Shown here piece after piece: positions 18,044 through 23,203 of a stretch of 30,028 nt of DNA. Numbering within the stretch: position 1 is the first letter of the stretch; the number at the start of each line of letters is the position of its first letter. The stretch spans positions 1-30,028 of IMG/VR virus record IMGVR_UViG_3300044941_000017; one strand, given 5' to 3'. The DNA comes from a virus. The notes beneath the pieces are model-generated. The model was not told the origin of the DNA, made no database searches, and saw nothing but the letters and a program-made list of their open reading frames with translations. The position numbers and the translations under genes were made by a program.

Positions 18044-18850
18044 CTAATCCTTACCCATGGTCATAAGTTTTTTTATTGCCTTTTCGACTGCGACTGGAAC
18101 CACTGAGTTGCCAAGGCATCTAATTCGGTCCATCCTATTTCGTACCCCATGAGCTCCTCGCAAAACGTGGGGTTGAGAGGTCCACCTACCGTACTCGCAA
18201 GGCTTTGGGAGTTTCGTTCTTTCGCGCTCGGCTCCGTCCCATTGTCCTTCCAATCCCTCGCGCAAAGTGTCGGAAGCATTCCTTTGCTTGCTAGTTGCGC
18301 AAGCCCTAGCCTCTTGTTCGTGCTGTTCGGACTGCAATTTGATCCTTCTATGCTCGCTGTTAAGGTGGGCAAGTAGGAACCACCTTTTTCTAAGATGGCA
18401 GGCTCCAACTTCTGCGGCTGAAACAATCGTCCATCTTGAATCATACCCGATTGAAGTGAGTTCCAAGAGAACTCGGTCAATCCCTCGAACAGAGATAGCT
18501 GGAACATTTTCCAAGAAAATGAACTTTGGTCGAAGATCGCAAGCGAGTCTTGCAATTTCAAAGAATAATCTGCTATGCTCTCCATCCAAGCCTTTTCCAT
18601 TTCCTGCAAAGCTAATATTTTGGCATGGGAAACCACCGCTGATGATGTCGATTCTTGGCAAGTGCTCTTTCGTGAGCGTTCGCACATCGTCCCAGATTGG
18701 AGCGGTATCAATTTGACCTGATCGCATTCTCGACAGTAAGACGCCTTGAGCGTATCTGTCAGATTCGCAATAGGCGACTGTTCTGACTCCGAATTGCTTG
18801 AGAGCGATTGAGATTCCTCCAATTCCTGAAAATAAATCCAAGCCATTCAT
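18044..18850 (-). CDS. DNA (cytosine-5) methyltransferase (268 aa)
   Basis: It transfers a methyl group from S-adenosylmethionine to C5 of cytosine, probably to shield phage DNA from host restriction. Motif I is LDLFSGIGGIS (residues 4-14). The catalytic PCQ loop is GGFPCQNISFAG (72-83, Cys76). Motif VI is FLENV (112-116). Motif VIII is RKRWFLLA (154-161). The final motifs RMDRIRCLGNSVVP and VAVEKAIKKL are at 239-262. The target-recognition part (about 165-238) is short. ATG 18850 with GGGGAA upstream is preferred over a GTG at 18874, since the protein then begins right at motif I as usual. A second protein is encoded in another frame over almost its whole length. Confidence 0.92.
   Translation of the reverse strand: MNGLDLFSGIGGISIALKQFGVRTVAYCESDRYAQGVLLSRMRSGQIDTAPIWDDVRTLTKEHLPRIDIISGGFPCQNISFAGNGKGLDGEHSRLFFEIARLACDLRPKFIFLENVPAISVRGIDRVLLELTSIGYDSRWTIVSAAEVGACHLRKRWFLLAHLNSEHRRIKLQSEQHEQEARACATSKQRNASDTLREGLEGQWDGAERERTKLPKPCEYGRWTSQPHVLRGAHGVRNRMDRIRCLGNSVVPVAVEKAIKKLMTMGKD
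18073..18846 (-). CDS. Alternative-frame protein overlapping the cytosine methyltransferase (257 aa)
   Basis: A 257-codon open frame starts at ATG 18846, 4 bases after the methyltransferase ATG, so both can share one ribosome site. It is not a random shadow. Its translation shows SGMIQDGRLFQPQ (133-145), LPTLTAS (159-165), LPTLCARDWK (191-200), GGPLNP (221-226) and LMGYEIGWTELD (232-243). From memory, this string of LPT..A, DWK and NP...LMG...GWT blocks recurs in annotated proteins that overlap or adjoin phage C5-methyltransferases. The GWT block and the methyltransferase's last motif come from the same DNA in two frames. Whether the product is made and what it does are unknown. Confidence 0.55.
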   Translation of the reverse strand: MAWIYFQELEESQSLSSNSESEQSPIANLTDTLKASYCRECDQVKLIPLQSGTMCERSRKSTCQESTSSAVVSHAKILALQEMEKAWMESIADYSLKLQDSLAIFDQSSFSWKMFQLSLFEGLTEFSWNSLQSGMIQDGRLFQPQKLEPAILEKGGSYLPTLTASIEGSNCSPNSTNKRLGLAQLASKGMLPTLCARDWKDNGTEPSAKERNSQSLASTVGGPLNPTFCEELMGYEIGWTELDALATQWFQSQSKRQ

Positions 18851-18864
18851 ATTTCCCCAAAGTG

Positions 18865-19740: not shown

Positions 19741-19757
19741 CAGTTTTGGCAACTCAT
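19728..19757 (-). pseudogene. Nine-codon remnant related to the 24-aa zinc-knuckle micro-gene
   Basis: ATG 19757 overlaps the stop of the pentapeptide gene (ATGA). The frame reads MSCQNCSGY and then TAA. It aligns with the start of the 24-aa peptide (MTCSNCNGYD), and the DNA stays similar for a few bases beyond the stop. I read it as a truncated duplicate, though it might still be translated as a leader peptide. Confidence 0.4.
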
Positions 19758-20536
19758 TTAAAAACCTCGGGATATTCCACACTCGAAACAAGTTTGTAGG
19801 ACGGAAGCGGGATTTGTTTAGACTTACAAAACTCCTCAATCCATTCACAAGTGATTTTGCTGATTTGATTATTTTGTGGCGTATCGCCTTTTGCTATTGC
19901 TAAAAACCATCTCTCCGCCGGTCGACTTGCGTCGGGTTTTAAATTCACTGTGAGTGCTTCGTAATGCTCTTTGCGCTGATTTGCAATAGTCCCAACTAAA
20001 CACGCACACTCGCCTGAGTACTGTGTGCCGTCTACTTGTCCTCTCATAAGGGCGTCATAAAGTCCTAGTATCTCCATTGGTACAATCTCAATCACCCTAT
20101 AAAAGTCATCTTTTATAAAGCTGAGATTGGCAGTGTGAAGATTGGTATTGCGGAGATTGGCATTGCGGAGATTGGCATTGAGGAGATCAGCATTGCGGAG
20201 ATCGGCAGAGCCGAGATTGGCATTGCGGAGATCGGTATAGCTGAGATTGGCATTGAGGAGATCGGCATTCCGGAGATCGGCATTGCGGAGATCGGCAGTG
20301 TTAAGATTGGCACTGCGGAGATCGGCAGAGTTGAGATCAGCAAAACTGAGATTGGCAAAACTGAGATCAGCATTGTTGAGATCAGCATTGCTGAGATCGG
20401 TATAGCTGAGATTGACATTGCAAAGATTGGCATAGCTGAGATCGGCAGAGCTGAGATCGGCTTTACTTCCACCTTCCTGCCCCATAACCCATTTTTTATG
20501 CATTTCTAAAACATTTTTTAGTTCTTGTGATTTCAT
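19754..20536 (-). CDS. Pentapeptide-repeat protein with C-terminal domain (260 aa)
   Basis: Residues about 25-142 are tandem A(D/N)LxxA pentapeptides (for example ADLSSADLSYANL), which fold into a right-handed square beta-helix that can mimic DNA shape. About 23 consecutive repeats are present. The C-terminal 115 residues form a separate domain (IVPMEILGLYDALMRGQVDG, CACLVGTIANQ, PAERWFLAIAKGDTP) that recurs after such repeats in phage proteins. Possible roles include binding gyrase or another DNA-handling host protein, but none can be assigned. The leader is shared with the gene at 19700. Upstream are a Gly/Tyr-rich protein and a DUF6948-like protein, a combination that recurs in phage genomes. 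Confidence 0.85.
   Translation of the reverse strand: MKSQELKNVLEMHKKWVMGQEGGSKADLSSADLSYANLCNVNLSYTDLSNADLNNADLSFANLSFADLNSADLRSANLNTADLRNADLRNADLLNANLSYTDLRNANLGSADLRNADLLNANLRNANLRNTNLHTANLSFIKDDFYRVIEIVPMEILGLYDALMRGQVDGTQYSGECACLVGTIANQRKEHYEALTVNLKPDASRPAERWFLAIAKGDTPQNNQISKITCEWIEEFCKSKQIPLPSYKLVSSVEYPEVFK
20110..20461 (-). repeat. 15-bp tandem repeats encoding pentapeptides
   Basis: The DNA repeats with a 15-base period (GCCGATCTCCGCAAT-like on the minus strand), about 23 copies. They are less diverged than the protein alone requires, so copies have probably been exchanged or gained recently. The array makes long open frames on other strands and frames that are not genes. Confidence 0.9.
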
Positions 20537-21339: not shown

Positions 21340-22305
21340 TTAGAAATTCCTCCTCACAATTGCGATCAATTCAGCCATCGGAGCACTGACAGGCTTGCCA
21401 GATTCATGCGCATTCTTTTCAGCCCAAAGAACATAGCTTGAGAGATCGCTAGGCGATACTTCACCGACTCTCTTGCCCTTGAACTTCCCAATTTTAATCA
21501 CATAGTCGAGATCGGATTGATTCGACTCTTGAATAGCGTCACCAGGCTGATCCCATAAATTCTGAACGGAGTTCAATTCTTGAAATTCTGCTTGAACGTC
21601 CTCCACGCTTTTATTTCCAGCAATCATATCTTTCAGTGCCGCAGCCGGATTTTGAATCGGCTCAGGGTTTACAACTTCCACTTTTTTTTCTAATTGCTGC
21701 ACAGGCTTTGGCGCGTAAGCAGGAGCAGGTGGGACATCGACCTTTATAGTCTCAGGTCCAGAAGAATAGGCCTGTTCCATCTCCTCACTTGAGTAAACGC
21801 CCGAAAGATCGTTCGGAAATGCTTTACGAAGTGCTAACGCCTCTGCGACTTTTGCGATCATTAAAGCTGGCATCTTGTTCCACATATACGATAGCGAGCC
21901 ATCTTTTTTGCGCTGAGCGTACTCATTAAAAATAGCAATCGCGATCAAAGGCTCTCGAAATCCCTTCTTGTAAACTCCCACCTTGCAAGCAGCTGGCGGT
22001 TCATGTTTAAGCCAAACGTCCTTCCAAACACCATCAAGACCACACCAAAGTGGAGCAGTCTGCCCTTCGTAATTTCCCGACCTCTCAGCTACTAGCCTGA
22101 ATCCGTCGATCGAAGCTTGAATGTTTACTTTCCCGTCGTGCCCCTTAATGAAATAAATTTGCCGCGTGAAGGGATCAAGCCCCGTGCGCTTGCATTGATT
22201 CACAAAAAGACTTAGCTCATCGTGAGTCGCATCTTTCGCAATCGTGCGCTTAATTAATTCAATTTGTTCTGCTGAAAAATCGACTACTCTTGTGATCTCA
22301 TTCAT
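21340..22305 (-). CDS. bet: Bet/RecT-type single-strand annealing protein (321 aa)
   Basis: It anneals complementary single strands produced by the exonuclease upstream. Residues about 30-140 carry the family pattern: [40 protein letters not shown] and a later APALMIAK-like [20 protein letters not shown]. The C-terminal 55 residues ([20 protein letters not shown] and YVLWAEKN) look like a DUF3820-type domain, an addition often seen on phage annealing proteins. It overlaps the exonuclease gene by 8 bases and uses an AGGAGCTAAC ribosome site shared with other early genes. Confidence 0.88.
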
Positions 22306-23203
22306 GTGTTAGCTCCTTTGTTTGTTGTTCGTTTGTTTGCAATTGTCTTATATCAACCCGAATGCTTTTAGAATCTTTTTTTCTGTATTGTTCAAGATTC
22401 ACGCCCTTCAATTCCGGCACTTTTGAATAATCTATTGCTCCAGCGCGCGTTACGACTTGAATTGAAATTTGTGCGCTTTCAATTTTGCGCGCCTTGTATT
22501 TCTCGAGTAACGCGCTCGCAAGCGTGTCGTGCTCTTCTTTTAGTATCTTTAAAGCCTCATCTAGTTGTTTCATTTTAAGCTTTAGCTGATAGATGCGATC
22601 TGTTTCTAAAACGTCGATCTCTTTCACTTCAACTAAGCTCACACCTTCGCTTTTTAAAGAATCTAGATCACTTAAAAATCTTTCAGCCTCTAGCTTCATC
22701 TCTTCAAATTGCGATTGATCGAATTGAATCCACACGCTGTGCGATATTCCAGCATAGACTACGACTAACAAAGTAGATGACGCTTTTGAAATTGCGCAAT
22801 TCCACACGCATTGCGCTTTAAAATGGGGGGGTATATCGCCAGACCTTACAGATTCAAATGTCTCGCGACTCGTAGTGTATTTGACTTCTAAAACGTGCTC
22901 GCCACTTTCAGAAATTCCGTCAAGTGATGCTATGAGCCGATCGTTCTGATCGTGCACAAAGACAGCTGGCTCGAACTTCATCGCAATACTATTTCGGACC
23001 ATCTCCTCGACTTCGTGTCCCTTTTTAAAAAGATTTCGAGTGTAGTCTGTGAGTTGAGTCTCTTTGCCTAGCTTTTCTTGCATGAGAGCCGTCCTAGTCT
23101 TGTGCGGACTCACTCCCATGATCGCTGGAATGTCACTTCCTCCGATCTTGTCCTTGCGAAATTTAAACCACTCTTCCGATCCTTGCTCTAATTTGATCCT
23201 CAT
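22298..23203 (-). CDS. YqaJ/lambda Exo-type recombination exonuclease (301 aa)
   Basis: It degrades 5' strands at double-strand ends to give substrates for the annealing protein. Conserved positions are [11 protein letters not shown] (20-30), KKGHEVEE with Glu64, the catalytic Asp95 in SLDG and the E106-V-K108 pair in LEVKY. Then come PPHFKAQ (Gln at about 131) and a C-terminal coiled-coil region of about 80 residues. The core fold ends near residue 170. The gene is preceded by AGGAGCTAA and lies in an early operon with bet, as in Red-like systems. Confidence 0.88.

Follow-up and report, generated by a model that had tools for sequence, protein, structure and literature searches.

The two reading frames of the locus

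The window analysed here is a stretch of 30,028 nt from a 30 kb virus record that contains phage genes for terminase, head, RecT-like and RecE-like proteins. Its minus strand carries two overlapping reading frames, alpha of 268 residues (18044-18850) and beta of 257 residues (18073-18846). Beta is in the +1 frame relative to alpha, is wholly nested within it and is open throughout. The two starts overlap as ATGAATGG, the ATG of beta following that of alpha by 4 nt; a GGGGA sequence precedes both, with a spacing of 3 nt to the alpha ATG and 7 nt to the beta ATG. The original prediction, of a 257-codon frame inside a 268-codon methyltransferase gene with ATGs 4 nt apart, was thus confirmed in its coordinates, on the minus strand, and all of the conserved blocks that it named were found in the two translations. 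It had also taken the GWT block of beta and the final methyltransferase motif of alpha to be the same DNA read twice. These are instead neighbours (the beta block LNPTFCEELMGYEIGW at 18130-18177 and the alpha motif CLGNSVVP at 18095-18118), and the beta residues overlying LGNSVVP read about ...ALATQWFQ. The features of the locus are as follows.

18854-18858, minus strand: GGGGA, Shine-Dalgarno-like by its sequence, with a presumed function
18044-18850, minus strand: alpha chain, C5-cytosine methyltransferase, 268 residues (PF00145, phrog_363, motif positions)
18815-18841, minus strand: alpha motif I, LDLFSGIGG, AdoMet binding (motif position)
18620-18637, minus strand: alpha motif IV, GGFPCQ, with the catalytic Cys (G, P, C and Q invariant in alignment A4)
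18500-18517, minus strand: alpha motif VI, FLENVP (E and N invariant in alignment A4)
18368-18394, minus strand: alpha motif VIII, LRKRWFLLA (motif position)
18095-18118, minus strand: alpha motif X, CLGNSVVP (motif position)
18073-18846, minus strand: beta chain, 257 residues, +1 frame (open and conserved in relatives; phrog_1008)
18430-18522, minus strand: beta core block, SFSWKMFQLSLFEGLTEFSWNSLQSGMIQDG (conserved in alignment A3; profile alignment to the C-terminus of split and single-chain forms)
18130-18177, minus strand: beta motif IX block, LNPTFCEELMGYEIGW (P226, M233 and G234 nearly invariant)

The alpha chain matches phrog_363 (E 5.7e-67) and PF00145 (E 4.9e-42), and contains motifs I, IV, VI, VIII and X, while motif IX is absent. 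A single-chain member of PF00145 has motifs I to X all in one chain, which is not the case for alpha: its match ends at profile position 196 of 324, versus 321 in the fused protein gp40 of phage Spartoi, where the match spans positions 3-321. The motif missing from alpha is encoded by beta, in which the pattern P-x5-[LI]MG[FYW] corresponds to motif IX in both sequence and position; the equivalent block of the single-chain Spartoi gp40 lies inside its PF00145 match. In addition, beta carries the segment by which motifs VIII and IX are separated in single-chain relatives. The small domain of C5-methyltransferases contains motif IX along with the variable region (PMC3404938).

The beta chain matches phrog_1008, labelled DNA methyltransferase (E 1.1e-15), and hhalign aligns its profile with that of the C-terminus of the split and single-chain forms (E 5.6e-28). 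No family corresponding to beta was found in Pfam or NCBIfam, and beta profiles gave no credible match among PDB sequences, i.e. no solved structure was recognised. Modelling of beta alone by AlphaFold2 (32 sequences) gave a mean pLDDT of 56.5. The model of a fused relative (L238) is confident in the catalytic domain only, so the structure comparison, which covers that domain only, is uninformative on the beta segment.

Elsewhere on the minus strand of the window, the adjacent genes for a RecT-like annealing protein (21340-22305) and a RecE-like exonuclease (22298-23203) match phrog_2780 (E 3.7e-71) and phrog_434 (E 5.2e-39), respectively. A 260-residue protein of ADLxxANL-type pentapeptide repeats is encoded at 19754-20536, also on the minus strand; this repeat region has long open frames on both strands, at 20113-20472 (minus) and 20135-20509 (plus).

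Conservation and distribution of the second frame

Relatives were collected as 108 viral-contig loci with PCQ and motif X in frame, seeded mostly by alpha queries, with about ten loci obtained via a beta query and a few from phage records. The +1 frame is open for 55% or more of the gene length in 107 of these 108 complete relatives, and the +2 frame in one. A canonical motif IX was found in the alpha frame of none of the 108, and a regular expression for the P..LMG block matched the beta frame in 101 of 108 loci, a count to which a few off-target hits contribute. Many relatives have a beta frame that is open and conserved already from the start of alpha, and not just after motif VIII. Cultured phages of Paenibacillus, Mycobacterium, Salmonella, Acinetobacter, Synechococcus and Vibrio also have the open, conserved +1 frame; in most genome records examined, only one of the two proteins is annotated.

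The original prediction had further suggested searching for the beta family where it occurs without methyltransferase overlap. A beta query against one genome per bacterial or archaeal species gave at least 80 loci; in 78 of the 80 matches listed alpha overlaps beta in another frame, in two it lies in the same frame, and none of the 80 listed has beta without alpha. The taxa among these listed matches range from Acinetobacter and Pseudomonas to Verrucomicrobia and archaeal bins.

To gauge chance, synonymous codons were permuted while the alpha protein and its codon usage were kept fixed. Between codon 60 and 30 codons before the gene end, stops in the +1 frame number zero in all 28 loci, versus null means of 2.4-8.6 per gene, and the +2 frame of the same loci has 3-19 stops, mostly near the null. 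Among 24 sequences, second-frame similarity exceeds the null with z values of 18, 37 and 44 in three successive regions, compared to 7, 19 and 11 for the third frame; a repeat with 37 other sequences (<75% identical) gave 43.8 and 42.3 for the second and 18.5 and 22.9 for the third frame. Part of the +1 excess over the null is ancestry, as the +2 frame reaches z 23 on the same test. This third-frame excess indicates that shuffling also removes shared ancestry, and only the difference between +1 and +2 is therefore credited.

Codon positions 1, 2 and 3 of alpha vary nearly equally in codons 166-252 (0.57, 0.45 and 0.53), as is expected where both frames are constrained; the corresponding values for codons 1-60 are 0.32, 0.22 and 0.55. 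In the C-terminal half, alpha itself is poorly conserved, yet second-frame conservation is far above the null. Both frames are under selection: the shuffling of synonymous codons revealed second-frame selection in two sets of relatives, and a check for second-frame stops in close relatives, named in the original prediction as the observation that would speak against dual coding, left the proposal standing.

The beta run has its first ATG at +4 relative to that of alpha in 49 of the 108 loci and at +7 in eight. In other groups it lies 130-184 nt inside alpha, so beta may be able to do without its N-terminal part. For alpha chains that start with Met-Asn, AAT, and not AAC, at codon 2 creates the beta ATG. 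AAT is used at this codon in 51 of 54 cases versus 405 of 944 in the whole gene, a bias that is partly a general start-proximal one; the fairer comparison is with start-proximal codons of the same kind (53 of 57 versus 64 of 87, p 0.002).

Rearranged relatives and the proposed two-chain enzyme

The distribution of motifs over the two frames differs between relatives. In five loci (L047, L051 and, from genomes, L199, L212 and L228) alpha stops directly behind motif VIII, with both IX and X in the beta frame. This arrangement is also that of Catdawg gp6/gp5 and ArV1 067a/067b, which are annotated as DNA methyltransferases. In WillSterrel gp71, Spartoi gp40 and L238, on the other hand, motifs I-VIII, PTPT-type blocks, IX and X are all present in one frame. 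A quick tree of the alpha N-terminal domain requires nine layout changes by parsimony, at least four of which are forced by well-supported branches. Several switches of motif X between frames are probable, as judged from these sequences. Their exact number is unsure, as the count depends on the support values of the quick tree and the label of one locus is doubtful: L193 was counted by script as having X in beta, and was discounted as it looks like an indel inside alpha. Another locus, L236, proved to be a frame-shifted fragment and not a clean fusion.

Two actinophage cases deserve separate mention. The single-chain methylase WillSterrel gp71 (L149 610-1785) contains an open beta-like +1 stretch ahead of the position from which the beta sequence continues in the main frame, as would result from a fusion of both frames by an indel; it can be compared to ShiLan gp70 (L148 1137-2306), likewise a single-chain actinophage methylase. 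In phage phiBT1 (L150 1008-2058), gp9.1 is annotated as 'DNA methylase may be inactive'; a beta-frame ORF in +1, which contains motifs IX and X and has no annotation, overlaps and follows gp9.1, and the phiBT1 enzyme may hence be complete.

The closest known counterpart is M.EcoHK31I, which is part of a restriction-modification system, whereas the gene in the window belongs to a phage, and no restriction enzyme was recognised next to it. Its small chain was reportedly described by Lee, Kam and Shaw in 1995 as encoded within the large gene, in another frame. Both polypeptides of M.EcoHK31I are needed for in vitro methylation, the sequence methylated is YGGCCR, and M.EaeI is grouped with it as a two-polypeptide C5-methyltransferase. 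The large chain has motifs I-VIII and X, and the small chain motif IX (PMC3404938). Likened by description, the window shows the same division, with I-VIII and X on alpha without IX, IX on beta, and a nested +1 gene. The target recognition domain (TRD) is located on the large chain of M.EcoHK31I (PMC3404938), whereas a TRD-like segment appears, from its sequence, to be on beta in the window.

M.AquI is similarly a split C5-methyltransferase with motif IX on the small chain. In this case the small chain has both IX and X, and the large chain extends past VIII only into part of the variable region, while in the window X stays on alpha (18095-18118); the AquI-like split is present in the five loci mentioned above and in several actinophages. 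The cluster O mycobacteriophages have a pair of +1-overlapping genes (Corndog 7/6, Catdawg 6/5) that jointly hold the parts of a C5-methylase, although here the overlap is partial and motif X is in the second gene. The overlap of these genes has coding potential and similar arrangements occur in other phages; their authors remained undecided between two products, a frameshift, a hop or an intron (PMC4351075). Paenibacillus phage Lily gp62/gp63 has an annotated internal +1 ORF ('g62 internal gene') ending in the IX block; in contrast to beta of the window, gp63 starts 184 nt inside alpha, lacks the N-terminal stretch and is annotated as hypothetical.

We propose that the two frames very probably encode two subunits, alpha and beta, of one split C5-cytosine methyltransferase, in view of the stop-free and conserved second frame, the division of motifs, the rearranged and fused relatives, the AAT preference at codon 2 and the precedent of M.EcoHK31I. 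Points against this proposal are the poor models of the beta segment, the PDB searches that yielded no credible match, the part of the +1 excess that is ancestry, and the location of the TRD of M.EcoHK31I on its large chain. In this enzyme alpha would provide the catalytic domain (AdoMet site, PCQ, ENV) together with motif X, and beta would supply motif IX and, probably, the greater part of the small domain that recognises the target. Both chains would be translated from one mRNA, starting at the two ATGs (4 nt apart) downstream of a single Shine-Dalgarno-like sequence, and would then associate; alpha without beta is expected to be inactive or poorly active. The complex would methylate DNA at a target site, most likely for protection of the phage DNA against host restriction.

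Three other readings have to be considered. Motif-rich DNA gives some similarity in other frames, as also shown by the +2 frame exceeding the shuffle null, and conserved methyltransferase DNA could by happenstance look conserved in a second frame. This hardly deserves credence, given the 28 loci free of +1 stops where 2.4-8.6 are expected, the many stops retained in +2, and second-frame conservation that is far above the null where alpha is poorly conserved. The 'remarkable frame artefact' offered as one option in the original prediction is accordingly rejected on stop counts, shuffling and the survey. Its other option, a 'widespread, uncharacterised dual-coded gene', holds for the widespread dual coding, which is strongly supported by the stops, the shuffling and the 107 of 108 relatives, and does not hold for 'uncharacterised': since the same motif division has been published for M.EcoHK31I, and overlapping cluster O genes have been discussed, the two-frame locus is not of an uncharacterised kind.

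Beta could also be a real protein without being a methyltransferase subunit, e.g. a regulator or an inhibitor of a host restriction enzyme, which would agree with its having no recognised solved structure or Pfam family. This we regard as very improbable, as single-chain enzymes contain the beta segment as an in-frame part of the chain, between VIII and X, motif X itself occurs in the beta frame of other relatives, and beta is never without alpha among the 80 beta-query matches listed. Less far-fetched, albeit still improbable, is a single long product, made by ribosomes that shift or hop from alpha to beta and back, or into beta to its end; a frameshift or hop has been raised for the cluster O methylase genes (PMC4351075), and single-chain relatives exist. 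The nested form has X in alpha, however, so that two opposite shifts around IX would be needed, and both the beta frame being open and conserved from the alpha start in many relatives and the position of its ATG (+4 in 49 and +7 in 8 of the 108 loci) argue against such a product.

Split C5-methyltransferases as such are known; what appears to be new is the breadth of the nested arrangement and the movement of motif X between frames. In a literature search, largely outside subscription journals, no publication was found that describes nesting as the usual form of phage C5-methyltransferases. It seems reasonably likely that a large branch of these enzymes is obligatorily two-chain, with the second chain nested in the first gene, the overlap kept across deep divergence, motif X repeatedly switching frames and the pair also fused into one chain. 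The usual annotation of such phage methyltransferases is the alpha frame alone, and many database entries would then list half the enzyme. If beta is required, cloning of alpha only would lead to the enzyme being scored as inactive, or to its specificity being missed. The locus also represents a well-sampled pair of nearly full-length overlapping-frame proteins kept over deep divergence, and the natural nested, split and fused states make the question posed by Corndog, two products or one recoded product, directly testable.

A stop codon within motif IV of other phage methylases

In 15 viral contigs (L136 at 948-971, L137-L147, L157, L158 and L159) the motif IV sequence GGFPCQ is split as GGF-CCN-stop-CCN-TGY-CAR, i.e. 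Pro-stop-Pro. The motif IV of the window itself is intact. The 15 contigs represent 14 clusters at <80% identity, and the reading frames on either side of the inserted stop are mostly intact. The stop is TGA in 12 contigs, TAG in two and TAA in one, and is never replaced by a sense codon; a scan in which both inserted codons were left free retrieved 14 contigs, all within the 15, and a scan for 3-nt inserts in motif IV yielded none. This Pro-stop-Pro arrangement is a candidate for a natural in-frame stop hop, with readthrough, decay or assembly error as other candidate explanations of the sequences. If tRNA-Pro hopped over the stop, the product would have exactly GGFPCQ again. According to a 2016 review (PMC5009743), no natural case of hopping over an in-frame stop was known, and the stop-interrupted GGFPCQ may be more novel than the two-frame locus.

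Three of these contigs (L143, L144 and L157) have an in-frame HNH-endonuclease-like segment of about 490 nt between motifs I and IV, and in L147 an HNH-like stretch is present in +1. An HNH-like segment by a stop-interrupted motif IV recalls T4 gene 60 and its neighbouring homing endonuclease. Directly 5' of the insert, the DNA sequence GGCGGGTTCCC is common to most of the 15 loci, the proteins of which are mostly 35-69% identical; this shared sequence could reflect co-conversion or a shared element.
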